DNA from: a virus
Direction: 5' to 3' (one strand)
Length of the DNA: 64,000 bases
Virus record (IMG/VR): IMGVR_UViG_3300024518_000876
Coordinates: 39,500-103,499 of that record
The translations under genes were made by a program, and so were the position numbers. Below are positions 39,701 through 62,441 of this stretch, piece by piece; positions within the stretch are counted from its first letter, which is position 1, and the number at the start of each line of letters is the position of its first letter. The notes beneath the pieces were generated by a model. The model searched no databases. It worked only from the letters and a program-made list of their open reading frames with translations, and was not told where the DNA came from.

Positions 39701-40693
39701 GATTTTCTAGATAATGAAATAATAGATCTAGATGGTAAATATGGAGCTATTAATAATATAGTAAACTTTAAAGATGAGTTGTTTGCTATGCAAGATACTG
39801 GAATATCTAAATTAATAATTAATCCTAGAGTTCAAGTTCAAGGAAATGATGGATTATCTCTAGAACTAGGTAGAGGAGCAGTACTGTATGATTATCAATA
39901 CTTAACTACAACTTCAGGTACTTTAAATAAATGGGCAGTAGTAGTTTCACCAACAGGTTTTTATTACTTAGATTTAATAAATAAAACTTGGAATAAATCA
40001 AATGGTGGAAGTATATTAGAATTAAGTGATACAGCAGGTTTACATGCTTTTTTTAATAATAATTTAAATTTTAATGAATTAAGTATTAATAACCCATTGT
40101 TAAAAACTGGCGCATCTGCTGGATATGATTTACTTAATAATACAGCATACTTAACTTTGTTACAAAAAGATAATAATCAAACTATAAACTTTAATGAGAT
40201 GTCAAACTCTTTTGAAAGTTTCCATGATTATCATCCTAGTATATATATGAATAAAGGACATAAGTTATATTCTACTGCACCTAACTTAAATGAGGTATGG
40301 GAGCATGACAAAGGTCCGTATCAAACATTTTATGGGGAATACTTCCCTAGTTTTATTACTTTACAAGTTAATCCAGAATCTAACTTAGATTGTGTGTTTA
40401 ATAATATAGAGTATAAATCTGAAATGTACTTAGATGATGTAGATCAACCTGAAGCTACTTTAAGTCATATTACAGCTTGGAATGAGTACCAGAGGACAAA
40501 TAGACTTCCATTAGTATTGGGTCGTAATAAGAACCTTAGAAGAAAGTTTAGAAACTGGCAAGCTCAAATTCCTAGACAAGCAGGTTCAAGAGATAGAATT
40601 AGGAATCCTTGGATATTTTTGAAACTGGAATTAGATAGGAAAGATAATTTAAAAATGATATTACATGATATAATTATACATTATAGTATATAG
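36710..40693 (+). CDS. large tail/muzzle-type protein (1327 aa)
   Basis: A 1327-residue, beta-rich protein with few long helices, many D/N/G turns, and several Cys in the first 130 residues (CIDVV, CEDS, CSED, CIWEV). The long beta-rich form and position after the ring proteins match the 'muzzle' or nozzle protein of crAss-like podoviruses, which closes the tail tip and opens at infection. The C-terminal 60 residues are basic and Arg-rich (KNLRRKFRNWQAQIPRQ). It ends a transcript; the next gene has its own promoter. Confidence 0.75.
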   Translation: MVKKVQYTYKGLNQDVTKSKHPFQFYYNAKNIRIVTTDTQSTGSVSNEKGQEQIIDLPTLCIDVVNKVINYGGKSLPFDNQEIIDQINDVPSPGCEDSSVLPVCSEDQLILGYALTRNSIVLFSTDTKGFDCIWEVKEILNDNYDLELLYCRNLGFSINNPIQALFNYENEVIQKVYWVDGKNQLRFLNIRQSIENGDLENLIDLRSSTINITGDYALSQPTIFQITQGGGHTAGMIQYAYNLYKLNGSQTTISPVSEIVPLDFGTPGGGEVNEIVGAAPTVKITNIDENYTNIRIYAIKYTALNEVPSIGLIYDQEIDNYEEVLYFDNASVINTISLEEFLFLGSNVFIPQHIQTKDSRLFAANLTDKAFDLEIDCRSYSFNSSGQSTVRDADGALFPIEPLNNYNLPPKNAAINDNYNVFIYQSDGSTLGGEGRYIKYEILQKAVAQCKDGEKNTRVFKDREIYRIGIEFYNGLGQKTAVKWMADLKAPTGNLEDRLNTLNVTLKPEFFTYINSLCLNDESKPVGYKVVRADREANDRTILCQGAMTSMICQTVDDPSNFNKWKNIENRREESKKVVKKPIITSRDLNNSGILSEMNHLLHMNENPNVSDDSQEIFRESATDFKRQQTWQFNQMFQLYSPEVLFSTGLTFTPGLKFRVNGIANKSQINLWTKGILTRDESVYREEKFPNRIQFSRGDGLGQYGWIGPGRDEDGPTRMNFKQLYHQCETFTPASSSIGYSIYGSPEITERGQGITNYFNDTEYQYSNSLESFLTDAKKWTGDSDKNEPPIETINSWGAKCLTIVEGSDTDAFEDRQTLEKIWNDSQTGVLRGLVIAEVTYPDDYVYNSNIYGGNSFEAKSRTNYIQIGEYQTLDNPTVQIDSPGDTYVQIFRVARLAKTDTKVISDRAYQLTDTLSFKVETTVNLLNRQDLSLKSWETKNQYRYDEYHKYNNIYSQQSTLIQNQALDFKFKKVDAFDTRVIASKSKIPGEVIDSFTDFLDNEIIDLDGKYGAINNIVNFKDELFAMQDTGISKLIINPRVQVQGNDGLSLELGRGAVLYDYQYLTTTSGTLNKWAVVVSPTGFYYLDLINKTWNKSNGGSILELSDTAGLHAFFNNNLNFNELSINNPLLKTGASAGYDLLNNTAYLTLLQKDNNQTINFNEMSNSFESFHDYHPSIYMNKGHKLYSTAPNLNEVWEHDKGPYQTFYGEYFPSFITLQVNPESNLDCVFNNIEYKSEMYLDDVDQPEATLSHITAWNEYQRTNRLPLVLGRNKNLRRKFRNWQAQIPRQAGSRDRIRNPWIFLKLELDRKDNLKMILHDIIIHYSI

Positions 40694-43941: not shown

Positions 43942-46482
43942 ATGAATAGATTTACAAATTTAACTCCTTCTCAGTTTGATCCATTAAGTTGGGAAGAAGT
44001 TGCTAGAGTACCTTTACATAAAAGAACTCAACATACTGCAGCAGAAACAGCTAAAGCTGAATTAGAGACAGCTGCTGCACAATTAGATTCATTACCTGTA
44101 CATGACAAAAGGGCTAGAGAAATTCAAGATTATTATAGAGATAGATTAGGAGATATGTCCAGTAAACTAGCAAGTGAAGGAATTAATCAAAATACTACTC
44201 AAGAAGTATTAAAATTAAACTCACAGTTTAAACAAGACTTTTCTCCCCTAGGAGATGCAGGTAAAATTATGGCAGCAAAAACTGCTTTTAACGCAAATAA
44301 GCAAGATTTTTATGGACAAGGCTATAAAGCAGGACATAGTGGGGAATATTTAGATAATAAATGGAGTAGATTTGCTGAAGATTACGCTAATAAGTACGGA
44401 GATAATCAAGTTATAGAAGATATAGGTTCATTAGGTGTTGGGAAATACTATGATGTAGATAAAACTATAACAGATGAAATGCAGCAAGTAGGTAAAATTA
44501 TGGAAGATAATGATATACAAGGAGACTACAAAATAGCTTTCCCTGGTGGAGTACCAGTCTTACAAAGTGTAACTAATTCAGGAAAAACTATAAGTAATTT
44601 ACCTCAGCTTCAACAAAAATTAAAAGATTTATATGATAGATTTACCAATGAAGAATATGAAAGTGGTAGATTTGCATCAGATTCAGGTTTTACATCAGAA
44701 GCAATTCAAAGAAAACTAAATAATGCATTAGGTGCTTATTTAAATAGTGCAGAAACTACAGGTAGAAGAGTAAGTATTCAAAATATTCCTACTGATAAAT
44801 CAGGTAAAGGAAGAAGTGGTTCAGGAAAAACTTCTAATGATGACGTATACACAAGTACTGGAGCTGACAATCTTCCAAATGCAACTACTCCTGCAGATGT
44901 TAGAAAAGGAGCAGACGAGTTAATGGATTCTACTGACCCTATTAAACAAGCACATGGTAGAAATATTAAGGCTAATTTAGAGGCAATTGAAAATGATCAT
45001 TATGCGCAAGATCCTTACGCTATAAAAGCAAATGAATTACTAGTAGGAAATGATAATAACCCAGGATTGCAAAGTACATATTTAAATGTAGAAAAGCAAA
45101 TTTTAGGTAAAAAATATCCAATTACTTATAGAGATGGAGTAGTTTCTGATTCTAAATCAGCAGAGTTAGCACCTTCAAAAATGTTAATGACTCCTGAAGA
45201 AATAAATACAGCTGTATCTGATTCTAATAGATTTAATACTTTAAATGATGCAGTAGCTCCATTTATGGATGTATTTAGTAAGGACGATCCGGCTACAGGA
45301 GAAGTTGTTATATACAAAAAAGACCCTACAGATACATCATGGACAGGTTCAGTTAAAAAAGCATTTAACCAAGTTGCTAAATTTGAAGTAGCAAGAGTGT
45401 CTAAAGAAGAAGTAGAAAAGATTAGATTACATCAAGAGCAAGTTAAATTATCAGAAGAAGCTTTAAATAAAAAAGTAGAGTATGATAAACAAATACAATT
45501 AAATTACCATCTTAATCCAGAAAAAACTGCAGATTTAGGAGCAATACAAAAGAAATCATTTAATTACCTTAAAAATGGATTTACTAATAACTTACCTTTA
45601 AAAGAAGTGAGTATAAAAGAAATAGATGAAAATGGTAAAACAGATGACTCAGAAATCTTTACAGGAGACAGTACAAGTAAAATTAAAGAAGAAATACTTA
45701 ACCTTATGACTCCTGAAAACACAATACTTAAAGGAATGAGTTTAAATGGTTCTTATTCTAAGAATGACCCTGTTGCTTCTTATGAAATTACTATTCCAGG
45801 AGAGGACGGTAAGAAAAAAGTGTATAATATAGAACTTAGTTTAAATGATTATAAGACTCAAACACCGGGAGGTACATTAGATGTATCCAGTTCTGCAGGA
45901 GAAATAATAAGTCTTTACAAAGAATATGGAGGTGTTAAAGGTGCAGGTGTAGCTAAAAGAGCACAGCAGCAAATTGACTACAGTAATATATCTATGCCTA
46001 CTTTTAGTAAAAATTATGATAACTCTCAACAATTAGTTAATAGTGGATTAGTAACTCCAAACTTAAAAAATGCAACTGGGTCACAAAAATTTGATTTTGA
46101 TTTAATAGATGGAAAAGTTGGACTAGTTTATCAAAGTGAACAAATAGCAAATGTTGCTGAAGGAGAAGCTAGATTTAAAAATAAACCATTAACTTGGAAT
46201 ACTATATTACTTGGAGATTCTAATACAAAAGATGAAAATGTAAATTTAGTACAAATGCCGAAGACTAAAGAAAAGATACAAAGTCTTCCTCCACAATTAA
46301 CTAGTAAACTAGTAGACCAAATATGTAAAAATGCTAATGTGCCTAAAGCAAACTTTAATAGTATACCAGAAGAAAAGGTAGATAGTATATTAAATGAAAT
46401 ACTTAGCTCAGAACAAGGTGGTAACTACCCTATAACAGCTGATTCTCATTATGATTTACTAGATTTAATAAAACAAATATAA
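43942..46482 (+). CDS. large cargo protein (846 aa)
   Basis: An 846-residue, charged, helix-rich protein with no membrane segment. A Gly/Ser-rich disordered stretch lies at about 286-300 (SGKGRSGSGKTSNDD). It lies between the glycine-zipper protein and the 1411-residue cargo protein in the operon that ends with the virion polymerase. This placement fits a capsid-packed, ejected protein. No enzymatic motif recognised. Confidence 0.6.
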   Translation: MNRFTNLTPSQFDPLSWEEVARVPLHKRTQHTAAETAKAELETAAAQLDSLPVHDKRAREIQDYYRDRLGDMSSKLASEGINQNTTQEVLKLNSQFKQDFSPLGDAGKIMAAKTAFNANKQDFYGQGYKAGHSGEYLDNKWSRFAEDYANKYGDNQVIEDIGSLGVGKYYDVDKTITDEMQQVGKIMEDNDIQGDYKIAFPGGVPVLQSVTNSGKTISNLPQLQQKLKDLYDRFTNEEYESGRFASDSGFTSEAIQRKLNNALGAYLNSAETTGRRVSIQNIPTDKSGKGRSGSGKTSNDDVYTSTGADNLPNATTPADVRKGADELMDSTDPIKQAHGRNIKANLEAIENDHYAQDPYAIKANELLVGNDNNPGLQSTYLNVEKQILGKKYPITYRDGVVSDSKSAELAPSKMLMTPEEINTAVSDSNRFNTLNDAVAPFMDVFSKDDPATGEVVIYKKDPTDTSWTGSVKKAFNQVAKFEVARVSKEEVEKIRLHQEQVKLSEEALNKKVEYDKQIQLNYHLNPEKTADLGAIQKKSFNYLKNGFTNNLPLKEVSIKEIDENGKTDDSEIFTGDSTSKIKEEILNLMTPENTILKGMSLNGSYSKNDPVASYEITIPGEDGKKKVYNIELSLNDYKTQTPGGTLDVSSSAGEIISLYKEYGGVKGAGVAKRAQQQIDYSNISMPTFSKNYDNSQQLVNSGLVTPNLKNATGSQKFDFDLIDGKVGLVYQSEQIANVAEGEARFKNKPLTWNTILLGDSNTKDENVNLVQMPKTKEKIQSLPPQLTSKLVDQICKNANVPKANFNSIPEEKVDSILNEILSSEQGGNYPITADSHYDLLDLIKQI

Positions 46483-46483
46483 T

Positions 46484-49400
46484 ATGAGTTTAAAACAAAC
46501 TTTAATTGATAACAGTAACTACCCTCCATTAGAAGATAATGGGGGGATTAAGGGTTATTTAGCTAATTTTGCAAATGACACTGGTTACGATGATATGGTA
46601 ACTCAATATGCTAATGATGTAACAGCAGATCAAAGCGATTTAAAATTTACTGGATATACTAAAGATAGAGACTACTTACTTGAAGATGCTTCAGATTTTG
46701 GTTATGATGATTTAATTGAGTTTAAAGCACAGAATCAATCTAACTGGGCTAAGAGAGGTAGAGGATTAGCACGATTAGGATTTAAAACTGCTATGAATAT
46801 ATTAGAGATGCCAGGAATAGCTTTTGGAGCAGCTGAGGCAGCTATGACAGGGGATCCTTATGCATTAATTAATAATGGATGGTCTAATGCTATTAAATCT
46901 GCAAATGAGTGGTTTGATGAAGAAGTAGCACCTGTGTATGTAAAAAAAGCAGTAAGAGATGGTAACTTGTGGGACAACATTAAATCAGTAGATTTCTGGG
47001 CTACAGAAGGTGCTGATGGTCTTGCATTTGCTTTATCTGCATTAGTACCTGGAGCAGCCGTAAAAGGTCTTAAATTAGGTTCTAAAGTGGCAAATGGGTT
47101 AGCTAAGAGTAAAGGTGCTAAGTATTTACAGAAAGTAGATGATAAAATATCTAAAATGATGAATACAGGTGGAGTAGCAGATACAACAGATATTGCTGCA
47201 GCTACCGCATTTAATACTATTTATGAAGCAGGTATGGAGGCTCAAATGGGTATGGATTCTTATAAGACTAAATTAGCAGATATGTTTGCTAATAATGAGA
47301 TTACTCAAGATGATTATGCAGCTTTAAGTGATAAGACTGGTAGTGTGGGGGCGAATATATTTGCAGCTAATGCTGCTTTATTATTAGGACCAAATGCTAT
47401 GATGTCTAAATCTTTATTTGGAAAAGCTATGCCTAAAAAGCAACTAGGTAAATTTAAAAGAGTAGATGGTAAATACGTACCAGAAGCAAATCAATTATCT
47501 AAAAAACAAAAAGCTTTAAAAGGTATAAAAGATGGTGCAGCTCTTATTGGAAAGTCTACTGTATCTGAAGGATTTGTAGAAGAAGCAGGTCAAATGGTAG
47601 CTGAAAAATTTAATGTAGAGGGAACTATCCAAGATTATTTAGGAGAAGAGTCTAAAAGTTTAACTGAATTGTACGCAGATGTGGTAAATTCTACAGAGGG
47701 ACAAAAAGCTATTATGCTAGGTGGAGTTTTTGGTACAGGAATGACTGCAGTTGGGGATATTAAAAATAGAAAACCTACTAAAGAAAGAAATCAAAACTTA
47801 GCTGATATGATGTCTAGAGGTGCTAATTTAATGGATGTATCTATTAATGGAGTATATAAGACAGATGAACAAGGTAACATAGAGTTTGATAAAGGTAAAC
47901 CTGTTGTAGACCAAGCAAAGCTTGCTAATTTTGGTAGTGAAATGGAGTTTGTTGAATCTATAAACAATGCAAAAGAGGATATAGTTGAGCAAGTAAGTAA
48001 AGGAGAGATGACTATTTCTGAAGCAGCTGCTAATACAGAGATGTTAGACGAAACTTTAAGAAAGCAAGCATTATTATCTTTTGTACATGCACAAGATGAG
48101 GGATTAGAAGTATTAGAAAACTACCTAGAAAATGGGTCTGGTATAGAATCACTATACGCTGCTGAACTTGAAACTAATCCTGAATTTGATATTAAAGGAG
48201 CTAAACAAAAACTTAAAGGTGAATTAATTGCGGAAGCTACATCTTTACAAAAAGATTTAAAGTATGCACAAGATTACATGCACTTTGATAATCAATTAGA
48301 TGTAAAACAAAGTGACCCTCACTATGGACAGTATATGTCTAAATTACATCAAGATTACACTATTGCAAATTCTAACGTAAGACTAGCTCAATCTAAAATA
48401 AATGAGTTAAATTCAGCTAAAGATAAGTACCAAGTAGTAGATTATGAGACTTTAGATAATAAAGGACTGTTTATGGACAACATAGATAGGGAAATAGCTA
48501 CTTATGAGCGTACTAAAGAAGCACTAGAAACTAAAATAAAATCTTATGTAGACCCTGCAGTACAGAAAAAAGCCTATGAAGCTTACAGTAAGCAACAAAC
48601 AGAATTAGAGAATGTAAATGAAGAAGCTAAAGATTTAGATAAAACATTAACTGATATAGATAATGCTACTAGTAGAACAGAAGTAGAAGAAGTTATAGCT
48701 ACATCTGGATTAACTACGCCAGTTAAAAAAGAAGCAATAGAAAAGAAAAGAGTTGAGAAAGAAAAAATGTTTGATACTCAAAGAGCAAAAGTAGCAAAAA
48801 AAATTAATGAAGATGCTGAAAAAGAAGAAGTCATTAATGTAGCAGCACAAATAGCACATAATGATGCTTTAGATTATATTAGAGATAACTTTAATGAGGG
48901 AGAGATTATTCCTTTACCAGAAGATATAGATACAGATATGCCACTAGAAAGTTATTTACAAATAACTAAGTTTAATCAAGATGGTTCAATTGCTTTTTTA
49001 GATGTTGATACTAATTTAATTGAAATATTTATTCCAAAAGTAATTAAATCTACTATTGTAGAAGCAATTCCTACTGAAACTGAAGGAGTAGAGTTAGTTA
49101 ATAGTGATATTATTAATGAAGAAACTGTTAAGAAAACTGATACTTCAGTTGAAACTGACCCTAAAATAGCTAGTGCAGGTGTAGGAACATCCGAAGGATA
49201 TCTTGAATATTTTCAACTAAATGGGCAAGATAAAAAAGGTACTCCGGTACAATTTGCTATATTAGATCCAGGAGGAATTACAAAAGATACTCCTGCATTT
49301 GTTAGGGATATGATTACTAAGTCCAAAAAGGCTATTGATATATATAACCAACTTTTAGCAGGTAAAGCTCTTACAGAAGCACAAGAAGATTTATTCACAG

Positions 49401-50719
49401 GTTATTTTCCTTTACAAGTAAATGTAACTGGTACAAACCATAGTTCTTTTATTCATGCAGAGTTTAGAAATAATAAAAGTAAACCTGAGCAAAAAATAAG
49501 AAGACAAATTTTAAATGTATTAAAAGCAGAAGTAGCTAAAGGCAACCCTGTTAAAATTACAGATTTAAGTACTACTATATTAAATCAAGGTAAAGGTAAA
49601 TTAAGTTTAGAAGAAAAGAAAGGAGTTTACAATAGTCTTAATGATTTAAAAAATATTCAAGACCAAGGTGGACTAGAAAATCTTGAATTTGGTATTCTTA
49701 ATGATGTAGGTATTTTAGTAAATCCGTATGATAAAGAAAGTATTAAAGGAAGTACTGTATTTAACCCTGATTGGAGAGGAGCAGTATTTGTTATGATAAA
49801 TAGAGATAGTACAGGTGAAAAGTTTCCTCTACATGTTAATATTAGTAGAATATCAGAACAACATGCCAGTTCTTTATATGACTTAGGGTTAGATGTTATT
49901 AACAATTCAACTGTCACTAATAACACTAGACTTAGTGATATGGATAATTTTGATAGGTACTCTACTGAATTTGCAGAGGAATTAGAATTAATGGTTAACT
50001 TAGGTAAAAGAACAGTAGATGAAATTACTGTAAATGACTTGACAAGATTTATGTATTTTACAGGGTCTGCGTCTCCAAAATCTAAGTTACAAATAAACAA
50101 CGACTCACTAGTATTTGGGTCTACTGAAATAAAAGCAGGAGAAGAAGTAACTTCTTTAGATAAAGATGAATTTGTAGATTGGGTAACTAATAATAAAAAT
50201 AGAAATATTAATGGTAAATCTTTAAGTAATTCAAAATATAGAAAATATATTATAGATAATAAAGTATTATTTTCTAATGCTAAAGCCAATGTACCATTGT
50301 TTTCTCAAGACACTGATTTATTCTTAGATGTTAATGTTAAGTATAACAAACCAACACAACAGCCAACACAACAAAGTGGAGCTGTTACTAAAAATAATGA
50401 AGATTCTACTAGGAATTCTCAAGAAAAAGTCGTAACTTTGCAGAAACAAACTAAAAAAGAAGTGACTACAAAGAGAAAGAAAAAGACTAAAAAGTTTAAG
50501 AGTGGATTAAGTGGTATCACTGTACCAGGAGTTAAAAATACTACAGCAGAAACAACTACTAACAGTAGTACACCAGTTCCAGGAGAACAAACTACTTCTA
50601 CTGAGAAACCAGAAGAAATATGTAATGGTGATGGAGAAGTAATGGGTAGTATGAGTACAAGTTTAAAGGGTGCAAAACCTGCTAAACCAAGTAATAGATT
50701 TAATAAATTTAAAAAATAA
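46484..50719 (+). CDS. giant cargo protein (1411 aa)
   Basis: A 1411-residue protein with hydrophobic patches in the first third: DGLAFALSALVPGAAVKGL at about residues 178-196, ANIFAANAALLLGPNAMM at about 289-306 and a GGVFGTGMTAV patch near 412-422. Long charged coiled-coil stretches follow (about 500-800), then a mixed domain, and a Lys/Thr-rich disordered tail (about 1290-1411). It probably inserts into or crosses the host membrane at infection. No catalytic motif seen. Confidence 0.6.
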   Translation: MSLKQTLIDNSNYPPLEDNGGIKGYLANFANDTGYDDMVTQYANDVTADQSDLKFTGYTKDRDYLLEDASDFGYDDLIEFKAQNQSNWAKRGRGLARLGFKTAMNILEMPGIAFGAAEAAMTGDPYALINNGWSNAIKSANEWFDEEVAPVYVKKAVRDGNLWDNIKSVDFWATEGADGLAFALSALVPGAAVKGLKLGSKVANGLAKSKGAKYLQKVDDKISKMMNTGGVADTTDIAAATAFNTIYEAGMEAQMGMDSYKTKLADMFANNEITQDDYAALSDKTGSVGANIFAANAALLLGPNAMMSKSLFGKAMPKKQLGKFKRVDGKYVPEANQLSKKQKALKGIKDGAALIGKSTVSEGFVEEAGQMVAEKFNVEGTIQDYLGEESKSLTELYADVVNSTEGQKAIMLGGVFGTGMTAVGDIKNRKPTKERNQNLADMMSRGANLMDVSINGVYKTDEQGNIEFDKGKPVVDQAKLANFGSEMEFVESINNAKEDIVEQVSKGEMTISEAAANTEMLDETLRKQALLSFVHAQDEGLEVLENYLENGSGIESLYAAELETNPEFDIKGAKQKLKGELIAEATSLQKDLKYAQDYMHFDNQLDVKQSDPHYGQYMSKLHQDYTIANSNVRLAQSKINELNSAKDKYQVVDYETLDNKGLFMDNIDREIATYERTKEALETKIKSYVDPAVQKKAYEAYSKQQTELENVNEEAKDLDKTLTDIDNATSRTEVEEVIATSGLTTPVKKEAIEKKRVEKEKMFDTQRAKVAKKINEDAEKEEVINVAAQIAHNDALDYIRDNFNEGEIIPLPEDIDTDMPLESYLQITKFNQDGSIAFLDVDTNLIEIFIPKVIKSTIVEAIPTETEGVELVNSDIINEETVKKTDTSVETDPKIASAGVGTSEGYLEYFQLNGQDKKGTPVQFAILDPGGITKDTPAFVRDMITKSKKAIDIYNQLLAGKALTEAQEDLFTGYFPLQVNVTGTNHSSFIHAEFRNNKSKPEQKIRRQILNVLKAEVAKGNPVKITDLSTTILNQGKGKLSLEEKKGVYNSLNDLKNIQDQGGLENLEFGILNDVGILVNPYDKESIKGSTVFNPDWRGAVFVMINRDSTGEKFPLHVNISRISEQHASSLYDLGLDVINNSTVTNNTRLSDMDNFDRYSTEFAEELELMVNLGKRTVDEITVNDLTRFMYFTGSASPKSKLQINNDSLVFGSTEIKAGEEVTSLDKDEFVDWVTNNKNRNINGKSLSNSKYRKYIIDNKVLFSNAKANVPLFSQDTDLFLDVNVKYNKPTQQPTQQSGAVTKNNEDSTRNSQEKVVTLQKQTKKEVTTKRKKKTKKFKSGLSGITVPGVKNTTAETTTNSSTPVPGEQTTSTEKPEEICNGDGEVMGSMSTSLKGAKPAKPSNRFNKFKK

Positions 50720-50721: not shown

Positions 50722-53700
50722 ATGGCGTGTAAAGTAATATTTAAGCCAAATGGGAAAAAAATAGCTAGCAGTATCTTGGTTGACCAGGTTACTGCTATTG
50801 CTAATAAATATCCCCATTTAGTTTTAAAACAATTTAATGAGGCTAATCCAGAATTAGAAATAGAGAGCATATCAGAAATAACTGAAGACATTCAAGATGT
50901 AGTTATAGAAGATATGTTATCTTATTTTAGGAGTCCTTACTTCATTAGAAATTTTGGAGAATGGGAAGTAGAAGGTAGTAATATACCAGAAGACTTTGTT
51001 AATGAAAAAGGCGAGCCTAATTTATTAATAGATCCTAACAATGGTAAATCTTACCATAAAAGTAAATTTGGAGAAAAGATTTATTTTCCAATGGAGCAGA
51101 ATGGGTTAAACTCTATTCCTGGATTTAATAACTCTCGTATAGGTAAAGCTGTACAAGTATTAGGTAAGAAATTTTTTATGCGTAATTTTAACTTAGATTA
51201 TAGCGATTTAAGTTTTGTTACTGAAAAAGATTTTGAATCTGAAGTAAGAGATATTATTGTAGAAAAAATTAATGAAGAACTAGCAGAAGATCCAGAAAGT
51301 GTAACTGCATATGATTTAGAGCAATCTTTAAATTATATGAACGAATGGACTGAATTGTTACAGACTTATTTTAAATCAATCGGGTTTAAAGTAGAAGATA
51401 AAGTAGATGAAGATACTGATGAAGAAGTAGGAGGTAGTGAAGAATTAATTAAACAAGCTTCTTACTCTACAGACAGTAAAGATAAAATATCTACTAATGT
51501 AAAGTTATTGCTGTCTGTAATTGAAGATAATAATGAAGATAATATTGACTACATATTTGAAGAAAATGGATTTGTAGACTTTAATGATATTTACAACACA
51601 ATCTTAAATGCAGTTAATGGTACTACAGTCATTGAGGAGGCTAAAGGCGACATTAAAGATGCTTATAATACAATGTTATCAAACATAAAAGAATTAGCCG
51701 TTAGAAAGCCTTATCTAAATACTTTAATTTCTGTATTAGAAGACACTAATTATCCAGAAAGTAAGAAAACAGAGTTTTTTCAAGCTTTTTATCTAAGTAA
51801 GAATAACTTTTTTGTTACTGAAATAGATGTGCAAGCTAAAGGAATAACTCACGTAGTTAAAAATGTTAGTGAATCAAATAAAAAGTTCAATGTAATTAAA
51901 GAAAGTTGGTACACTAATTTTAAAGATGTGTTAAATATAGGTACAGAAAATGTATCTTATCAACCTATTAAAGATGCTATTGCAAATTTATCAAGTTCAA
52001 CACAAACATTTAGAAAAAGTAAAAAAACTATTACAGATATAGAAGTAGTTATTAATGACTTACTTACTAATCTAAATAATATAGGAGTAGAAATTGACGC
52101 TAAAACTATAGAGGGGGAATATACTAAAGCATTATCTACTGATACATTTGGAGTAGTCTTACAAGATGTAGTACGAATCCAAAAAGTATTAGAAGAATTA
52201 ATGACTGGTGAAATTCCTTTGACTGAAAATGTATTTAATACGCAAAATGTATTTAGTAGATTAGCACAACAAAAAGCTTTTTATGAACCAGATAGTTCAG
52301 ATAATAGTATAAACTCAGCAGGTAAGTCCTATTGGGCTTATAGTTATCCTTCTCATATACAAAATGAGGTTAATAAATGGAAAGCTCCTAATGGTAGGTA
52401 TGAATTAGATAAAGCTACTACTTTATTAGGAAATGAAAGTTCAGTTTTATTAAAACATTTAACTGCAGATGATCAACAATTAGATTTAGGTAAAGAAACT
52501 ATGTCTACTAAAAGGTTAGAAACGTTTAAAGTAGGTATTTTTAATGTATTACAAAATAAAAAAACAGAACGTAGGAAAAGTGACCCTAAAGATAACACTT
52601 CTTTATCTAAAAATGATGCAATAGCTAACTCGCTCAACCAAGCTTTACGTATTGTAAAAGAAGGAGAGTCTACTAGTTTATATTACACTCCTACACCTGC
52701 AGATAAAGCAACAGCGTATGTAATGGAGCATGACTTTTTTGTAAAGTCAGAGTTAAAAGCTGAAGGAGGTAAATATAAATTCTCTAATGAAGTTTTAGAT
52801 ATTTACTATGATTACTTTAAATCTGAGTATAAGAGAATGATTCAAGCATATGCGGAACTTTCAGATGATAGTGTACAAAAAATAGTACATTACCATACTG
52901 TTAAAGGTTATCAATATGCAGAAAAAGATGGAGATACTTGGGTTAATTTTAATAATGAAGGAAAAGGTTACTTATTAGGGAATGCTTTTAAATCACAATT
53001 ATTTCCAAGTCTAAGTCCTGAAAATGTTAAAAAAGGATCACCTTTATACACATCACAAGGAGCACCTGACTTAACATTAGAAGCATTAGATCAGCATAAA
53101 GACGCTATAAAAAATAAAATTAACTCTATTTTACAGCAAAAACTAAAAGAAACTAAAGATAATTTAGTAACTGCAGGAATATTAAAAGAATTCACATCAA
53201 ATGATGGAGTTAGTTATTTAGAAAACAAAGGAATAGATTCAACTATATTTTATACTTACGCTAAAACTGAGCCAAAAATAGACACAAAAGGGTACACTGT
53301 AGAGTTATACAACTTAATTGCTGATTACTTTGTAAACACTTCTATAAACTTAATAGAGTATTCTAAAATGTTCTCTGGAGATCCTGCATACTATAAAAAC
53401 ATGGTAGATTATGCAAAAAGAATACCTGCTACATATACAGATGGATTAGGATTAAGAATTAAAAATGCTAAAGATCAGTATTTTACTGCTTCTGTTATTG
53501 CCGGAGTAGAAGTTCCTTCTCCTTATTTAAAAGAGTTAGAAGCTACGGTAGGACCTACTATTGCTAAAATGTATAAGAAAAATAACACTACAGATGCACA
53601 AGCTTGGATTACTCCTAAAAGATGGGAATTCCTAGTACGTAATTTAGGATTATGGACACCTATACATGATACAGCATTAAGTAAAATAATGGGTACAAAT

Positions 53701-56700
53701 AAAGAACCTTTTACTGAAAAAGAAAAGAAAGCTGTAGCACAACCATTAAAAGGAGTATACTTTAGTAGAGATACTACAAATCTTGAAAATGCAGGTAGAC
53801 CTACTTACTTAAAATATTCTCAAGCAGTATTGCTACCTGGATTAATAAAAGGTAGTCCTTTAGAACGTGTTTATAATAAAATGCAAGAAAAGGGAATTGA
53901 TGAATTAATTACTATTGATGGAGTAAAGGCAGGTGCAATAGCTCCAGAGACTATCCATAATGCAGATGGTACGTTAGCAGATGAATTTGACTTAAATACA
54001 TATAAATTAGATAATAGAGGTTGGAAATTACAACAAAACTTACCTACTAAAACTACTAAAGATACTAATGTTGGGTCGCAGATTCAAAAGAATGCTCTAA
54101 TGGGGCTAGCTAATTTCTTAGATGAGTCTGTAGATGGAGGCTCTTTTAATGTAAATGGGGAAATGACTTCTGGACAAGAGGTTTATGATGGATTAAACGA
54201 AGTTATTGGTGCATTATCTGATAAAGGTGTAGAAGATATTAAAAAAGAATTAGATATTAGCGATGATTTTAAAATCAATAATATGGACGGTCTTTATGAT
54301 ATGCTATTAAAAGATGCTAAAAGCAAAGGTATAGGTGATCAAAATTTAATCAGAGCCATAGAAAAAAACATTTCTATATATGGAATACCAGGTTCTAAAG
54401 AAAAGCTCTTAAACATGTTCTTTTCTATTGTAAAAGATAGAGCAGTTAAAGTTAAGACTAATGGTGGATCTATGATACAAATGGCTAATTTTGGATTAGA
54501 TAGTAAAGTAGCTACACAGAATACAGGTATTAAATGGTTAATAGATCCAGGTAAAGGACTTAAACCACCATTAATTGCAGATGTAGAAGTTACTGATAAA
54601 GATGGCAATGTTACTACAGTTAAAAAGATAAAACCAGGTCAAATATTACTACCTGGGACTGTTATTTCTAAGCAAATTCCTAATTGGGCTGAAATTCCTA
54701 CAGAGGAGTTGAAAGAAATGATTGATCCAGAAATATTAAATGGATTAATTGGTTACAGGATTCCTAACCAGGGGTTATCTTCTAATGATTCTTTAGAGAT
54801 AGTTGGGTTTTTACCTGAAGGAATGGGAGATGCTGTTGTAGCTTACTCTGAAATTCCTACTAAAACAGGTTCAGATTTTGATATTGATAAGATGTTTATG
54901 ATGATACCTTCTTTTAGGACTAAACTTAAAGGAAAGGCTATTAAGACGCTTAAACAAAGTGGACTAACTAATAAAATAGCAATGTCCATATTAGAAAATT
55001 TAGGAGTTAAATATGTTAATAATGATAGAGCAGTAAACACTGTGTATGAATTATATCAGAACGACCCTAAATCTATTCCAGAAGGAATTAGAGAGGCTTT
55101 AGACGCAGTTAAAGAGGTTAGTATGCAAGTTGAAAGGTTAGAATATATTAAACTTAGGACAGATGAAAATGGAATAGAATTACCTGCTGCAGAACAATCT
55201 AAAGATGCGTTAAAAAATAAGCTTATACAGTATTATAAATCTATCTTTACACACCCAGAGGTAGTTAAAGATGTAATGACACCTATTGACTTTGACTTTG
55301 TTAAAGATCATATTACTGCAATGTTTCCTGAACAAGAAGGTAAAGATTTAGATAACTTTGACATGGTTAAACAGATGGATACTAAGTACTTATTTATATC
55401 TGGTAAAGCAGGAGTAGGATTAACTGCAAATGCATTAGTAGATTTTGTAAGAGGATTGTTTTACACTTCTAAGATAAATAACTTTAATGTAAATGGAAAA
55501 CTAGGAAAACAAGGTGAAACTTTATTTGATACTGAATACTCTGAAGAACTAACTAACAAGGAAGCAAAAGAGTTTGTAGATATGTTAGACGGTGCAGGAA
55601 AAGAAGGATATACCGTAGAGAATATTAAGAAATTAAAAACTTCTCACTCTATATCTGCATTTTTGAATGCCTATGTAGATATTGCAAAAGATCCTTATGT
55701 TACTAGAGGTAACTGGACTACGCAGACTTCTAATGTTGGTTTCTTATTACTAAGAGCAGGTATACATCCATTTAAAGTAAATGCTTTTATGGGACAACCT
55801 ATTATTAAAGGTTACATAGATTTCATAACTAACACTGAGGCTAAGATTGGAGATGATGTAGGAGATGCTAAAACTGCTTTTTTAGAAAAGTATTTAGAAG
55901 ACTCTGCTAGAGATATGAAAGTAGAGATAATTAAAAATGACTCTCCTCTTTCTTTTAATTATAGTGATTTTTATAAAGAATTAAATGTAGAAAATAGAAA
56001 AGTAAGTTTACAGAATAAAAAAGTAGATAACTTAATTAGAAAAGGAAAGAAAGCACCTGCAAAAGTTAAATTTGATGCAGAAGCTACTTTAGTTAAAGTA
56101 GGAGTACCTGCTGAAGTAATTAAAGATGTAATTAAAAACTGGAAGTCTAATAAAGATATTATAGGAATTATTAGAGATCCTAAAGCATTAGCTAAGTTAT
56201 TAGAGAATCGTACTAAAAGTTTTAATGAAGTAAGTAAACTTAATGAATACAGTAAAAATACAAAAGATTATTCTAACACTGAATTTCAATTATCAGTAAT
56301 ACAGGATTTTTATGATTTATTAGATAAAGCTAAAAAAATGAATGAATTAGCCAAGTCTGCTAAACCGGATGTAACTGGTCCTGGAAAGAATTTAACTAGT
56401 TTGATGATAATTGACAATTTAACTAAAAACTTAAAAGAAAAAGCAGGAGAAGAGTATGAATTTACAAATATAGAGGATAGGTACGAAGTAGATGGTAAGA
56501 AAACTATTTTAGGACATTACTTTAATAACTCTATTGAGTTTCCAAAAAAAGTAGTAGAATCTAATCCTAATTTATTTTTTACAGGTTCTGAGAAAGTAAA
56601 TGCAGTGTACAATGATATATCTAATATGATATATGGCGAGACATTAACTAATAACACTTTAGGAGATGTACTGAATGCTGAATTTTATACTTATATGATG

Positions 56701-58221
56701 TCAGGATTTGAAAAAATCAATGATCCTAACTTTTTTAGCGAAACTAAAGGTAACTTAATAGCTACTATAGAGCAATATAAAGATAATATTAAACAAGCAG
56801 CGGAAGCTGGAGAGATGGTTGATTCTAATTTTTTACTAGATAACTTAGAAGTTAAAAGTGAAATAACTGTAAAAGGAGTTAATGGTAAAAAAGTAGAAAC
56901 AGTTGAAAAGTACTTAGTACTAAACAGGTCTTTAAAAGGTGAAGATGTGCAAAATAAATTGTACTACGCATGGAAAGATATGTTAGAAGCAACTGGAGAG
57001 GAAGGTCCAATATTTAACTATATTGCAGATAATCTAATTAAGTATTCTTTTTATCAATCAGGGTTTAATATGAATAGGAATCAATTTTTTACTTCTATTC
57101 CACATGAATTTTTTGTAAAGAATGAGTTTAACCAACATGTAAGAAATATTTCTAACTCTAGTAATAGATTTAGTAATTTCTCTGATCAATTCTTTAAACA
57201 TAATTGGAAAAATGATGCACTTGTTCCAGCTTATACTTTTGAAAACTCTGTACTATCTACAGAAGGAATTAAAGGAGGTGTACTTATAACTAATAAAAGT
57301 AAAACTAAAAAACTTAAACCTTTTATTAAAGTAGGACCACTAGCATTATTAGCTAAGTTTAAAGGAGTTAACAATAGGGGGCAAGGAATATATATGTTTA
57401 CTAATAAACTAGGACAATCTAATGAATTTGGAAACTTTTCTGAATATAATTTTGATATGATGCCAAAAAATAGTATCTTTGCAGAGAATAAACCTAGTTC
57501 AGAGTTAATTAAAAAAGGTAGAGAATGGTTTAAAAGTAATCCACCATCTAAAACAGAGTTTGATTATTATGCTTTAGAAGATAAAGTTGATTACTCTAAA
57601 GTAGAAGTAACTGAAGAAGTACCACCTGGAGTTGAAGTAGATAGTGAAGTAACTATAACTGATAAAAAATGGACTAAAGATTCTCCTAAAGAAAACCCTA
57701 ATACAGCGTATGTGTTTACTGAGAATATAAACTCAATAGGTAGCACTAGAGTTGGAGGTGGATCAGCTGTTATCAGAAATAATCCTAATGCAGTTGGCGT
57801 AGTAACTAAAAAGTATTATACTTATAAGGAAAATAGAACCTCTGATAATGAAGAACAATGGAATGCAGATTTTCAAGATACAGACGCTGATTTTGAATTA
57901 TTTAAAAAAGTTAATTTAGAACAATTTAAAAAAATAGATAAATTTACTAATAAAATATTTCCAGATTCTTTTGCTAATTCCTTAGCTAATATACCTAATA
58001 GGTTTGCATTGTGGTTACAAAACGAACTAAAAAATAAGTACGGATTGATAACGGAATTAAATTCTAAAGGAACAGGGTTAATCTCTAAATCTGTTCAAAC
58101 AACTGTAGAATTAGGTACTCCATTAGAAAAAAGAGTACAACCAGGTACTCAACTAGATATGTTTACTCCAGAACAATTGGGAGATTCAATTGAAGATAAC
58201 GATATAGATTGTAATAACTAA
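50722..58221 (+). CDS. virion-packaged DNA-dependent RNA polymerase (2499 aa)
   Basis: A single-chain, two-barrel type RNA polymerase of the crAss-like kind. The active-site signature SDFDIDKMF places three metal-binding Asp at residues 1385, 1387 and 1389, corresponding to the D-x-D-x-D loop of cellular and RNAi-type polymerases. YRIPNQG at about 1345-1351, just before it, recalls the Arg-Pro block upstream of the active loop in cellular beta' subunits. The long N- and C-terminal parts are unfamiliar. It is expected to be injected with the DNA and to transcribe early genes before host polymerase is engaged. It is the largest protein of the window. Confidence 0.88.
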   Translation: MACKVIFKPNGKKIASSILVDQVTAIANKYPHLVLKQFNEANPELEIESISEITEDIQDVVIEDMLSYFRSPYFIRNFGEWEVEGSNIPEDFVNEKGEPNLLIDPNNGKSYHKSKFGEKIYFPMEQNGLNSIPGFNNSRIGKAVQVLGKKFFMRNFNLDYSDLSFVTEKDFESEVRDIIVEKINEELAEDPESVTAYDLEQSLNYMNEWTELLQTYFKSIGFKVEDKVDEDTDEEVGGSEELIKQASYSTDSKDKISTNVKLLLSVIEDNNEDNIDYIFEENGFVDFNDIYNTILNAVNGTTVIEEAKGDIKDAYNTMLSNIKELAVRKPYLNTLISVLEDTNYPESKKTEFFQAFYLSKNNFFVTEIDVQAKGITHVVKNVSESNKKFNVIKESWYTNFKDVLNIGTENVSYQPIKDAIANLSSSTQTFRKSKKTITDIEVVINDLLTNLNNIGVEIDAKTIEGEYTKALSTDTFGVVLQDVVRIQKVLEELMTGEIPLTENVFNTQNVFSRLAQQKAFYEPDSSDNSINSAGKSYWAYSYPSHIQNEVNKWKAPNGRYELDKATTLLGNESSVLLKHLTADDQQLDLGKETMSTKRLETFKVGIFNVLQNKKTERRKSDPKDNTSLSKNDAIANSLNQALRIVKEGESTSLYYTPTPADKATAYVMEHDFFVKSELKAEGGKYKFSNEVLDIYYDYFKSEYKRMIQAYAELSDDSVQKIVHYHTVKGYQYAEKDGDTWVNFNNEGKGYLLGNAFKSQLFPSLSPENVKKGSPLYTSQGAPDLTLEALDQHKDAIKNKINSILQQKLKETKDNLVTAGILKEFTSNDGVSYLENKGIDSTIFYTYAKTEPKIDTKGYTVELYNLIADYFVNTSINLIEYSKMFSGDPAYYKNMVDYAKRIPATYTDGLGLRIKNAKDQYFTASVIAGVEVPSPYLKELEATVGPTIAKMYKKNNTTDAQAWITPKRWEFLVRNLGLWTPIHDTALSKIMGTNKEPFTEKEKKAVAQPLKGVYFSRDTTNLENAGRPTYLKYSQAVLLPGLIKGSPLERVYNKMQEKGIDELITIDGVKAGAIAPETIHNADGTLADEFDLNTYKLDNRGWKLQQNLPTKTTKDTNVGSQIQKNALMGLANFLDESVDGGSFNVNGEMTSGQEVYDGLNEVIGALSDKGVEDIKKELDISDDFKINNMDGLYDMLLKDAKSKGIGDQNLIRAIEKNISIYGIPGSKEKLLNMFFSIVKDRAVKVKTNGGSMIQMANFGLDSKVATQNTGIKWLIDPGKGLKPPLIADVEVTDKDGNVTTVKKIKPGQILLPGTVISKQIPNWAEIPTEELKEMIDPEILNGLIGYRIPNQGLSSNDSLEIVGFLPEGMGDAVVAYSEIPTKTGSDFDIDKMFMMIPSFRTKLKGKAIKTLKQSGLTNKIAMSILENLGVKYVNNDRAVNTVYELYQNDPKSIPEGIREALDAVKEVSMQVERLEYIKLRTDENGIELPAAEQSKDALKNKLIQYYKSIFTHPEVVKDVMTPIDFDFVKDHITAMFPEQEGKDLDNFDMVKQMDTKYLFISGKAGVGLTANALVDFVRGLFYTSKINNFNVNGKLGKQGETLFDTEYSEELTNKEAKEFVDMLDGAGKEGYTVENIKKLKTSHSISAFLNAYVDIAKDPYVTRGNWTTQTSNVGFLLLRAGIHPFKVNAFMGQPIIKGYIDFITNTEAKIGDDVGDAKTAFLEKYLEDSARDMKVEIIKNDSPLSFNYSDFYKELNVENRKVSLQNKKVDNLIRKGKKAPAKVKFDAEATLVKVGVPAEVIKDVIKNWKSNKDIIGIIRDPKALAKLLENRTKSFNEVSKLNEYSKNTKDYSNTEFQLSVIQDFYDLLDKAKKMNELAKSAKPDVTGPGKNLTSLMIIDNLTKNLKEKAGEEYEFTNIEDRYEVDGKKTILGHYFNNSIEFPKKVVESNPNLFFTGSEKVNAVYNDISNMIYGETLTNNTLGDVLNAEFYTYMMSGFEKINDPNFFSETKGNLIATIEQYKDNIKQAAEAGEMVDSNFLLDNLEVKSEITVKGVNGKKVETVEKYLVLNRSLKGEDVQNKLYYAWKDMLEATGEEGPIFNYIADNLIKYSFYQSGFNMNRNQFFTSIPHEFFVKNEFNQHVRNISNSSNRFSNFSDQFFKHNWKNDALVPAYTFENSVLSTEGIKGGVLITNKSKTKKLKPFIKVGPLALLAKFKGVNNRGQGIYMFTNKLGQSNEFGNFSEYNFDMMPKNSIFAENKPSSELIKKGREWFKSNPPSKTEFDYYALEDKVDYSKVEVTEEVPPGVEVDSEVTITDKKWTKDSPKENPNTAYVFTENINSIGSTRVGGGSAVIRNNPNAVGVVTKKYYTYKENRTSDNEEQWNADFQDTDADFELFKKVNLEQFKKIDKFTNKIFPDSFANSLANIPNRFALWLQNELKNKYGLITELNSKGTGLISKSVQTTVELGTPLEKRVQPGTQLDMFTPEQLGDSIEDNDIDCNN

Positions 58222-58226: not shown

Positions 58227-61200
58227 ATGTGTAGAATAAAAGTAAAAAAAGCATTAACTGATTTAGTGCATAAAAGTTTAAAGCCTAATGTATCCTCTGT
58301 AGATTTGTCTACAGGGGTTGCTATGCTTACTAAAGATGCAGATATTTCTGCTGTTACTAAGCTTATAAAAGGAGGTAATGAAAAGTATGATGCAAAGATT
58401 ATTACTTATACAAAATCTAGTGATAATGATTTACCTGGTTACGTAACTATTAATCCTTCTGAAGGAATGATAGATGTTTATTACCCAATGTTTGAAGCAT
58501 GGGAAGCCAAACAGTCTGAAGGGTCTAAAAAAAATTTAGGAGAAACTTTAGAGACATTGGTTAGTAAATCTAAAGAAGAAATATTTAACACTACTAATCC
58601 AGTAACTTTAAATAACACGTATGAAGCAGTAGATTATGACTCTGCAGGTATTTTATTTAATGATAAAACCTCTGGTGTTAAAGTAGACAATGTTTTAAAA
58701 AATATATATGACTACTATCAAAGTACTCATCCTGATTTAAAAGATGTTTTAGCAAGAATAGAGTTGTTAGGTAATTATGCAAAACCAACTGTAAAGTTTG
58801 TAAGTAGCTCACAATTAAAATCTAATGACACTTTAATGCAGTATGATGCTAACAATAATGAAATACAGCTTGCTAGAGACCGTATGGATAGTGAAAGTGT
58901 ACATTACGTAGCAGAATCATTTTTACATGAAGTAGTACACTCTGTAACCGTTAATACGTTACGAGGAGATAGTTTAGAATCTAAATTATTAAACGCAAGA
59001 ATTAGTGGGTTATATAGCGACTATAAATCTAAAGGAGAAGATAAATATGGTTTGACTTCCAAAGAAGAATTTGTAGCAGAAGCATTTACATCTTCAGATT
59101 TCCAAGACTACATTAAAACATTAGACTCTTCTAGTAGTCCGGAATCTTTATGGGATAAGTTTGTTAGTTTTATTAAAAATATATTAGGTATTAATAGTAA
59201 TAATTTTGATAATGTTATAAGTTCAATAGTTGATGTAATTAAATCTGAAAAAGGAATTAGTAATGAAGTACCTAATGCTGTATTTGAAACTAAAACTAAA
59301 GATGGAAAAGAATTTAAAAGAGTTGATTTAAGTACGTATGAGGCTAAAGTAGAGAACCTGTATAGTAAGTTACAAAACAGTATTAAAGCACAGGCTGCAC
59401 AGTTAAAAGGAGTAAGATATAATACTAAAGGCGTATTAGGAGACTTAAAGCGAGATAATATTAAGATAGCTGAGTTATTAGAAAGGAATGAAGAAGTAAA
59501 TAAGATTAAAGGTATCTTACACTACATTAATTCTATAGATTATAGTTTAAATATGCTAAAAGGAGCTATGTCTAAACCTAATATTACAAAGGACGACATG
59601 CAGAATATACTGTCTAATTATAAAAAGTATCACTCTTATTATAGTGCAATTGATGATATTAAAGGATTGTATGACTCAGTTATTAAAGATCCTACACAAG
59701 AAAATGCATTAGGTTCTAAAAAAGTACTACAAAAATTAGAAAACTTAACTAGCTCATATAAACAAATAGACAAGTCATTTGATGTTATTTCTAAATTGTT
59801 TTTTAAAGAACATTTAAATAATATAAAATATTTTCCTAAAGTAGAAGCAAATTGGAAAGAAAAGCTAACTAAAGAGTATGAGACATTATATAAAGGAAAT
59901 ACTATAAAGTTAAAAGACAACTTAAATAAAAAAAATTGGGTTAATAAAAAACTAATTGAAGCTAAAGAAGAAATAGATAATGATGTAAATACGGCTATAA
60001 ATGATTTAGTAGATAGTCCTAGTTTTGATATTAATTATTTTACACAGAATTTCTTATCTGCACTGGAAACTAATTCTGATATTGTACAAATGACACAAGT
60101 TATACTCAGTGAGATTAGAAATAGTATCATAGAAGAAGTAAACCCTATTCATTTAGAATTATCTAATTTGCATAAAAAGTTAACTAAAGCAATGGGTACT
60201 TCTAATCCAAAGGATTTATATAAAAATATGATAGATGTAGATCCTAATGGTAACACTTATTTTAAAGGAGAGTATAAAGCAGAGTTACATACTAAAATAA
60301 TTGAGTTAGAAAATGCTATTTCTACACTAAGTTATTATGGAGCAAAGGCGGAAGATTTACGGGATGCTGAAATGGATGAAAAAGCTGCTAAGTTACAAAA
60401 TAGAATTGTAGAACTACAAGAAGAGATCTTTACAAAAGAAGGTAAAAATCGCAAGATTAAAGAAAAGTATAAAACTAATATCAACTCTTTAAGTAAGGTA
60501 GAAAAAGAATCTTTAGAGTATATACATGAATTATTAAAGCAGTCAACAAAAAATACACATGGATTTAACTCACTTACTCCTAGTTATGCTGGAGCACAGT
60601 TTTATAAACTACCAAGTGTAACTAAAAGTGATCTAGAGCGCGCATTAGGTGGAGATGCTAAGGGTATATTTAAAGATAAAATAAAAGACATGACTACTTT
60701 AAGAGTAGATGATGTAGGGTATGAAAAAGCGGATGCTGCAGGAAATATAATTAAAGAAATTCCAGTACATTTTAGAGGAGAGATAGACCCAAAGAATCAA
60801 TCATTAGATTTATTTGGTATGATGGCACTTGAAAGTCAAAACTCCATAGCATTTAAACATAAGAAAGATAAAGAGATTGTTTTAAATGCAATACTAGATA
60901 CTGCTAAAGGTAAAAAATACTATAAAACAAAAGGATTATCAAATACCCCTTTACTTAATAAATTTTTAAAGAAAAATAATCAACTATTAACTTCTGAAGA
61001 AGACAGTGCTAATTCTAAAACAGTTCAAAGAATAGAAGGATTGTTGGAAAGTAGTTTGTATGATATAACTAAAAAAGCACAAGGTACTATTGCAGGTATG
61101 GATAAACAAAAACTTGTAGGACTTATTAATGGTTATACCGGTATGATTGGTATGTCTTTAAACTACCACTCTGGAGTTGCCAATTTAGCAGGTGGGTATG

Positions 61201-62441
61201 CTCAATTTTTAATGTCAGCTATTACTAAAGATACTATTACTTTAAAAAGTTTAAGAAAAGCAGGTTCTATATATCGTAAACATAGTATGGATAACTTAAA
61301 AGACACTTCTAAAACATTTGATGATTCTTTTACTAATCAAATTAATAAAATGTTTGATGTATTTGGAGGATTTCAAATAGGTAAAACTGACTTTATCAAA
61401 GATAATACTTGGAGAAGTTTTGCAAATATACACAGTTTACAAATGTTTAATGCAATGGGAGAACACCAAATGCAGTCTGTAATAACTATGTCTATACTAG
61501 AAGAAATAAAAGCTTTAGACAAAGATGGTAACTTTATGACTAAGGCTGGAACAGTTACTAATAATGAACAAGATGCGGCAAGTTTATTGGATATGTTAGA
61601 AAAAGATAAAAAAGGACTCTTAAAAATGAACGATAATGTAGTCTTTAGTGAACATTCTAATCTAACTAAATGGAATGATGGTGGAAAGGTACAGGTTCAA
61701 CAATTGATTAAGCATAAAGTGTTTAAATTACTTGGTAACTACGATGATAATATGCAACCTGAAGTTATGAAAACTGCTCAAGGTAGGTTATTGATGATGT
61801 ATAGACGTTACTTTGTACCTATGTATATGAATAGATTTAGAGGGATAGGAACTGCAGGTAAAGAATCTAAAGATTTAGAAGATTATGATAAGTATTTTTC
61901 ATACGGATCTAAGAGGTTTGAAGAAGGAATCTATGTTACTACTATAAGATATATAAAAAATGGCTTAATACCTGCTTTAAAAGCTGGTAGGTTACGTATG
62001 GTAACTCAGGAATGGGAAAACCTAACAGAATATGAAAGAGCTAATATTTACAAAACTATAGTAGAAGGAGGATTAGCACTATTAGTAGGTATTTTATCTG
62101 GAATTGTTGCCAGTATAGATGACGATGATGAAGCACTTATGTTTTTTGCATATATATTGAGAAGAACTGAATCAGAATTAAATCAGTATAGAAAACCTTC
62201 TGAATTTCAAAGAATTATTAAATCGCCTTTTGCAGGTATGCGTAGTATTAATAATGTAATAAATACATTAGAAAGATCTATATACTTTACAGAGTGGGGA
62301 GAAACTTACCAGTCTGGTAATAATAAAGGAGATTTAAAAGTATTAAGGGCTTGGGAGAAACTAGTGCCTATTTTTGGTAGGAATACTTCTAACAAAGATA
62401 AATTAGAATTTTTAAACTCATCAATGTTTTCAGGAAGTTAA
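58227..62441 (+). CDS. giant cargo protein with zincin protease motif (1404 aa)
   Basis: Residues 228-242 hold LHEVVHS, an HExxH zinc-binding motif (His234, Glu235, His238), and a gluzincin-like KEEFVAEAF lies at 279-287, where Glu285 or Glu281 could be the third ligand. The remainder is mostly charged coiled coil (about 370-860) with a hydrophobic segment near the C-terminus (IVEGGLALLVGILSGIVAS, about 1275-1293). As last gene of the operon beside the polymerase it is probably packaged and ejected; it may process other cargo or cleave a host protein. Confidence 0.7.
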   Translation: MCRIKVKKALTDLVHKSLKPNVSSVDLSTGVAMLTKDADISAVTKLIKGGNEKYDAKIITYTKSSDNDLPGYVTINPSEGMIDVYYPMFEAWEAKQSEGSKKNLGETLETLVSKSKEEIFNTTNPVTLNNTYEAVDYDSAGILFNDKTSGVKVDNVLKNIYDYYQSTHPDLKDVLARIELLGNYAKPTVKFVSSSQLKSNDTLMQYDANNNEIQLARDRMDSESVHYVAESFLHEVVHSVTVNTLRGDSLESKLLNARISGLYSDYKSKGEDKYGLTSKEEFVAEAFTSSDFQDYIKTLDSSSSPESLWDKFVSFIKNILGINSNNFDNVISSIVDVIKSEKGISNEVPNAVFETKTKDGKEFKRVDLSTYEAKVENLYSKLQNSIKAQAAQLKGVRYNTKGVLGDLKRDNIKIAELLERNEEVNKIKGILHYINSIDYSLNMLKGAMSKPNITKDDMQNILSNYKKYHSYYSAIDDIKGLYDSVIKDPTQENALGSKKVLQKLENLTSSYKQIDKSFDVISKLFFKEHLNNIKYFPKVEANWKEKLTKEYETLYKGNTIKLKDNLNKKNWVNKKLIEAKEEIDNDVNTAINDLVDSPSFDINYFTQNFLSALETNSDIVQMTQVILSEIRNSIIEEVNPIHLELSNLHKKLTKAMGTSNPKDLYKNMIDVDPNGNTYFKGEYKAELHTKIIELENAISTLSYYGAKAEDLRDAEMDEKAAKLQNRIVELQEEIFTKEGKNRKIKEKYKTNINSLSKVEKESLEYIHELLKQSTKNTHGFNSLTPSYAGAQFYKLPSVTKSDLERALGGDAKGIFKDKIKDMTTLRVDDVGYEKADAAGNIIKEIPVHFRGEIDPKNQSLDLFGMMALESQNSIAFKHKKDKEIVLNAILDTAKGKKYYKTKGLSNTPLLNKFLKKNNQLLTSEEDSANSKTVQRIEGLLESSLYDITKKAQGTIAGMDKQKLVGLINGYTGMIGMSLNYHSGVANLAGGYAQFLMSAITKDTITLKSLRKAGSIYRKHSMDNLKDTSKTFDDSFTNQINKMFDVFGGFQIGKTDFIKDNTWRSFANIHSLQMFNAMGEHQMQSVITMSILEEIKALDKDGNFMTKAGTVTNNEQDAASLLDMLEKDKKGLLKMNDNVVFSEHSNLTKWNDGGKVQVQQLIKHKVFKLLGNYDDNMQPEVMKTAQGRLLMMYRRYFVPMYMNRFRGIGTAGKESKDLEDYDKYFSYGSKRFEEGIYVTTIRYIKNGLIPALKAGRLRMVTQEWENLTEYERANIYKTIVEGGLALLVGILSGIVASIDDDDEALMFFAYILRRTESELNQYRKPSEFQRIIKSPFAGMRSINNVINTLERSIYFTEWGETYQSGNNKGDLKVLRAWEKLVPIFGRNTSNKDKLEFLNSSMFSGS

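Follow-up and report, generated by a model that had tools for sequence, protein, structure and literature searches.

Three adjacent genes of a crAss-like virus, those of a virion RNA polymerase (R) and of its upstream (U) and downstream (D) neighbours, encode proteins that are nearly free of cysteine, and all four cysteines of the three proteins lie at or near the ends that face each other in the order U-R-D. Judging by the sequences, we think it fairly probable that disulfides would join U, R and D head-to-tail in the virion, and that the proteins would leave it as a train whose bonds are reduced inside the host. The earlier note on this DNA missed the pattern that links the three proteins through their terminal cysteines. 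The window, i.e. the whole stretch analysed, comprises 64,000 nucleotides (positions 39500-103499 of a 103,499-bp virus record), and the block concerned contains the following genes:

36710..40693, plus strand, crAss muzzle protein, the tail gatekeeper (PF25731, PF25729), 13 Cys
41750..43939, plus strand, C1-like cargo, 729 aa, without Cys
43942..46482, plus strand, C2-like cargo, 846 aa, one Cys (795)
46484..50719, plus strand, U, upstream cargo/RNAP-associated protein, 1411 aa, counterpart of phi14:2 g067 and crAss001 gp47
50722..58221, plus strand, R, crAss-like single-chain virion RNA polymerase, 2499 aa, ATG start
58227..62441, plus strand, D, downstream RNAP-associated cargo protein, 1404 aa, counterpart of phi14:2 g065 and crAss001 gp49

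The open reading frame of R agrees exactly with the earlier note in position and length, and both catalytic landmarks named there were found again: the DFDID loop lies at residues 1385-1389, within GSDFDIDKM (1383-1391), and the upstream RIP-type block reads IGYRIPNQGLSSND (which contains YRIPNQG) at residues 1343-1356. The corresponding features are:

53299..56031, plus strand, catalytic core of R modelled by AlphaFold (residues 860-1770), predicted to fold as 6vr4
54748..54792, plus strand, RIP-type block of R, part IPNQGLSSNDSLEIV (residues ~1343-1357), an invariant block
54874..54888, plus strand, DFDID catalytic loop of R (residues 1385-1389)

In the alignment with 46 relatives the three Asp residues, T1382, G1383, S1384, K1390, Y1345, R1346 and N1349 are invariant. 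A phmmer search of PDB with R gave one match, 6vr4 (phi14:2 gp66), with an E value of 1.4e-240 over residues 66-1724 and 1856-2263. By tblastn, R is 33% identical over 75% to the phi14:2 'Catalytic RNA polymerase subunit', and many further crassviruses match more weakly. The model of the core (pLDDT 83, pTM 0.82) had 6vr4 as its sole significant PDB structure match (E 8e-61, TM 0.80, 886 columns), and the T7-like single-subunit fold of N4-like vRNAPs was not found in R, the only significant fold match being 6vr4. Two double-psi barrels are known in 6vr4 (PMC7886860), and their presence in R, whose absence would have refuted the earlier note, is deduced from the match of the predicted core to that structure, so that the proposed class withstands this check. 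The class assignment of the earlier note is thus upheld by the sequence match to 6vr4, the tblastn matches, the invariant catalytic residues and the predicted fold, and we regard the identity of R as a crAss-like virion RNA polymerase as virtually certain. Within this known class of polymerases, R is a new but ordinary member. PHROGs gave no match to R and Pfam gave only DUF7831, so the polymerase is missing from the family libraries. The remark that R is long even for its class did not hold: unfused relatives have ~2107-3046 aa and fused ones 3516-4946 aa, and length was dropped as a special feature of R, since relatives equal or exceed 2499 aa. For comparison, 56 related loci were taken from IMG/VR, and in the R tree the window is placed next to L003, within a clade of unfused forms that lies close to phi14:2. 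Virion packaging and early-gene transcription are known for the phi14:2 and crAss001 homologues, while the R of the window is known from its sequence.

The single operon of 21.6 kb claimed earlier is seen as a co-directional run of genes from 40794 to 62441 with intergenic gaps of 1-5 bases. R sits in a transcription/cargo block that adjoins the genes of the muzzle (at 36710, upstream of R; PF25731, E 4.6e-210), U and D, in synteny with phi14:2. The order U-R-D equals phi14:2 g067-g066-g065, which are annotated as virion structural protein, catalytic RNA polymerase subunit and RNA polymerase associated protein, respectively; all three were detected in virions by mass spectrometry (MS). In crAss001 the counterparts of U, R and D (gp47, gp50 and gp49) are virion cargo, found by MS, and this cargo must partly unfold to traverse the tail (PMC10172136). 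The synteny with both phages supports the proposal that the large proteins flanking R are probably cargo too. We note that D has a weak SprT-like/zincin match at residues ~183-241, with HExxH as HEVVH, likewise present in the fused L005, and that p-crAss gp45 is annotated as a fusion with a zincin protease. Thioredoxin-like genes are annotated near the cargo block in L066, L072, L079, L080, L081 and L084.

R has only two cysteines in its 2499 residues, at positions 3 and 2497, and U and D have one each:

50621..50623, plus strand, codon of Cys1380, the sole Cys of U, on the C-terminal side, junction Cys facing R
50728..50730, plus strand, codon of Cys3 of R, N-terminal junction Cys facing U
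58210..58212, plus strand, codon of Cys2497 of R, C-terminal junction Cys facing D
58230..58232, plus strand, codon of Cys2, the sole Cys of D, N-terminal junction Cys facing R

Together the three proteins contain 4 Cys in 5314 aa, as opposed to ~54 expected from the 1.0% Cys found in the remaining plus-strand ORFs (5-40 kb of the window; Poisson P ~1.5e-18). Ordinary numbers of Cys were counted in the muzzle and in the window's other structural proteins. It is conspicuous that Cys1380 of U is 32 residues from the C terminus, against at most 7 in the U proteins of all other genomes; the sequence beyond Cys1380 in the window reads NGDGEVMGS...FNKFKK.

The distribution of cysteines was then compared across non-redundant loci, and an end was scored as having a Cys if one was found within 10 residues of the terminus. 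A Cys was present at the C terminus of U in 43/43 relatives, at the N terminus of R in 45/45 and at its C terminus in 40/40 unfused relatives, and at the N terminus of D in 33/33 relatives, i.e. at 161/161 of the ends that meet in the order U-R-D. None was seen at the free ends, namely the N terminus of U (0/41), the C terminus of D (0/33) and the outer ends of fusions (0/3), which makes 0/77 in all. The bodies of the proteins are almost devoid of Cys (0.004-0.009% in U, R and D relatives); exactly one Cys is found in 42/43 U and 30/33 D proteins, and exactly two in 32/36 R proteins. The purging of the body is less strict in several gut phages, e.g. cr8 and cr106. Note that the relatives share ancestry and that the counts are therefore not independent trials; what gives the rule its strength is that it is broad and that ends which are joined contrast with those which are free. 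The rule is kept in Steigviridae (phi14:2, crAss001, cr106, cr85, DAC15, cr111 and cr128), Suoliviridae, Intestiviridae, Crevaviridae and the Flavobacterium phage Fpv1, and across several of these virus families the end sequences of U, R and D cannot otherwise be aligned. In crAss001, cr85, cr106, DAC15 and cr128 the gene of U is on the opposite strand and the rule still applies, so that it follows the proteins and not the gene order or the operon. A nucleotide-level cause is unlikely, given that both TGT and TGC are used, that the distance from the start or stop varies, and that U may lie on the opposite strand. Single-protein queries with crAss001, p-crAss and cr1_1 sequences against viral_contigs gave few or no matches. 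In the literature we found neither cargo disulfides nor the terminal-Cys pattern, and an earlier mention in the phi14:2 structure paper is possible.

The gene fusions follow the same logic. U is fused to R in L005, Suoliviridae, Fpv1 and cr108, and R is fused to D in L033/L043, Intestiviridae and cr127; in both cases the Cys pair of the fused junction is gone and the remaining one is kept. In other words, the U+R fusions have no Cys at the N terminus and one at the C terminus, followed by a D that begins with Cys, and the R+D fusions start with Cys and end without it, with a separate U that ends in Cys. In crAss002 the annotated start of the R+D protein lies upstream of an internal MSC, and this internal MSC fits the rule. 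An HMM profile of D places D as the C-terminal part of the R+D fusions. With hhalign, homology to U was shown for crAss001 gp47, cr111, L005, cr1_1 and cr108, and was not shown for the N-terminal parts of Fpv1 and cr118. The tree of R requires at least two origins (or losses) for each fusion state, and L033/L043/L054 are nested among unfused lineages. The occurrence of fusion in several lineages suggests that the linkage itself is what is selected.

Threaded cargo seems commonly to avoid cysteine, which makes the terminal cysteines of U, R and D conspicuous. The C2-like cargo upstream of U has Cys in 0/41 relatives, the copy in the window having its single residue, and the C1-like cargo lacks Cys in nearly all genomes. 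The ejected proteins of T7 (gp15 and gp16; L074) and P22 (gp7, gp16 and gp20; L075) and the N4 vRNAP of 3500 aa (L076) also lack Cys, and Cys2 is the only one in T7 gp14. This near-absence of Cys in the ejected proteins of unrelated phages (T7, P22 and N4) suggests that threaded cargo is generally constrained in this way, and scarcity of Cys may help to find further ejected proteins. The C1-like cargo of Intestiviridae has a single Cys near its C terminus, for which no partner end is evident (L066 p-crAss gp47, C856/857; L069 crAss002, C550/557; L079 jaberico, C747/757).

Multi-hundred-kDa enzymes have to be loaded into a virion and ejected through a tail channel of a few nm, in the right set and in the right order. 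We propose that, once the virion has been released and oxidised, a disulfide would form between the C-terminal Cys of U and the N-terminal one of R, and likewise at the junction of R and D between the C-terminal Cys of the former and the N-terminal one of the latter, giving a single covalent chain, U-S-S-R-S-S-D, of ~0.6 MDa. This pairing is deduced only from the fusions and from the end-specificity of the cysteines. The chain might then be threaded through the tail as a train, partly unfolded, and the purging of Cys from the bodies would mean that no wrong disulfide could knot it. The reducing cytoplasm of the host would open the bonds, the parts would fold and R would transcribe the early genes. 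A gene fusion would put a peptide bond in place of a disulfide. We lean towards a redox-releasable covalent train with one disulfide per junction, for each of which gene fusion may be an evolutionary substitute. If this is true, a code of one thiol per joined end and none elsewhere would explain how the crAss transcription proteins are packaged together, ordered and released, and also how the genes of U, R and D can be fused, split or inverted from one family to another and still function. The tail of crAss001 does contain disulfides (PMC10172136).

Several points speak against the train. The disulfides, with the timing of their formation, their reduction and their importance for ordered ejection, are deductions from the sequences. 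Assembly takes place in a reducing cytoplasm, and many of the hosts are strict anaerobes, so that the bonds would have to form after release or with the help of a catalyst; no thioredoxin match was found in the genome of the window. The position of the U Cys of the window at -32, the body cysteines of the gut phages and the shared ancestry of the relatives are to be counted here as well. Neither the reducing cytoplasm nor an anaerobic host would pose a difficulty if neighbouring terminal cysteines jointly bound a metal (e.g. Zn or an Fe-S cluster) and clamped the chains together in place of a disulfide, and such a clamp also accounts for the end-specificity and for the loss of the pair upon fusion. 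We nevertheless consider it unlikely: there are just two Cys per junction, the terminal stretches contain no conserved CxxC or nearby His, and the distance of the Cys from the end ranges from 1 to 8. It is quite unlikely, too, that the thiols tether each protein individually to another part of the virion (portal, tail ring or C1) or mark it for packaging, U, R and D being unlinked. The tail proteins of crAss001 are indeed disulfide-linked to one another (PMC10172136) and the C1-like cargo of Intestiviridae has its near-terminal Cys, but neither the restriction of Cys to the facing ends, with 0/77 at the outer ones, nor the exact loss of the joined pair on fusion is predicted by tethering or marking.

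A further reading is self-pairing, i.e. a disulfide between the two ends of R, or between like ends in copies of one protein. Most R relatives do have exactly one Cys per end, yet U and D have a single Cys each, and R keeps its C-terminal Cys when fused to U and its N-terminal Cys when fused to D, in each case without the partner. The intramolecular version is contradicted by these two kinds of fusion, and self-pairing as a whole appears most improbable. There remains the view that nothing is coupled, that ejected proteins simply avoid Cys and that the terminal residues are remnants without effect in a vRNAP operon of the ordinary kind. The almost Cys-free ejected proteins of T7, P22 and N4 and the C1- and C2-like cargo agree with it, but 161/161 junction ends against 0/77 free ends would be unexpected over families whose end sequences do not align, and we hold it to be very unlikely. 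The metal clamp, the tethering to other virion parts and the self-pairing of R are all less likely than the disulfide train.

The nearest described system is phi14:2 gp66 (6vr4), which is homologous to R over nearly the whole chain (~33-35% identity) and shares its catalytic loop, fold and the U-R-D order. It differs in that R has a longer, DUF7831-containing C-terminal tail and a longer insertion at ~1725-1855. Its cysteines are terminal as well: gp66 has only Cys3 and Cys2179/2180, U (gp67) has Cys1797/1797 and D (gp65) has Cys3. The end cysteines of crAss001 are placed as in the window (gp47, C2339/2341; gp50, C5 and C2404/2412; gp49, C5), whereas U (gp47) is encoded on the opposite strand and gp50 has one extra Cys in its body. 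The N4 vRNAP (gp50) has a T7-like fold that is unrelated to the crAss-like polymerase. It is similarly giant, packaged in the virion and ejected, its body is free of Cys (0 in 3500 aa), and it is thought to unfold for passing the narrow tail (PMC12633501). Unlike the U-R-D set, it is one chain, and it has no end Cys and so no coupling signal. Inter-protein disulfides in virions have been described in the tail barrel of crAss001 (PMC10172136) and in the tail of the Agrobacterium phage Milano (PMC10811340). There they hold the shell or tail locked, whereas the bonds proposed for U, R and D would be in ejected cargo and reversible in the host.

R is variable at the C terminus, where an accessory domain occupies a slot in front of the terminal Cys:

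57454..58218, plus strand, variable C-terminal tail of R, an accessory-domain slot with DUF7831 (~2313-2377) and the terminal Cys at its end

From the end of the conserved body (~residue 2244) to the terminal Cys, the tails of the relatives measure 68-976 aa and consist of swappable modules. DUF7831 occurs in the window and in two others, an SF1-type helicase module in L028, L032 and L044, a cpYpsA/SLOG-type domain in one relative, and an unnamed module is common to L004 and L055. The terminal Cys is retained whatever module fills the slot. The tail of L035 is also listed among the variable examples, and cr55_1 has a DUF7831-like stretch in the same place, as read from the sequence. DUF7831 was considered as the key novelty of R and dropped, being one of several such modules; its AlphaFold model has a pLDDT of 35.

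An insert with an ORF of ~214 aa splits the vRNAP gene exactly inside the DFDID loop, between TKTGSD and FDVDKM, in L014 (11652-12596), L015, L030, L038 and L058. Introns have reportedly been seen in crAss-like phages, and the insert resembles them; a search of the L014 insert against Rfam matched no intron family. In the R genes with a split catalytic loop the terminal Cys is still at the end.
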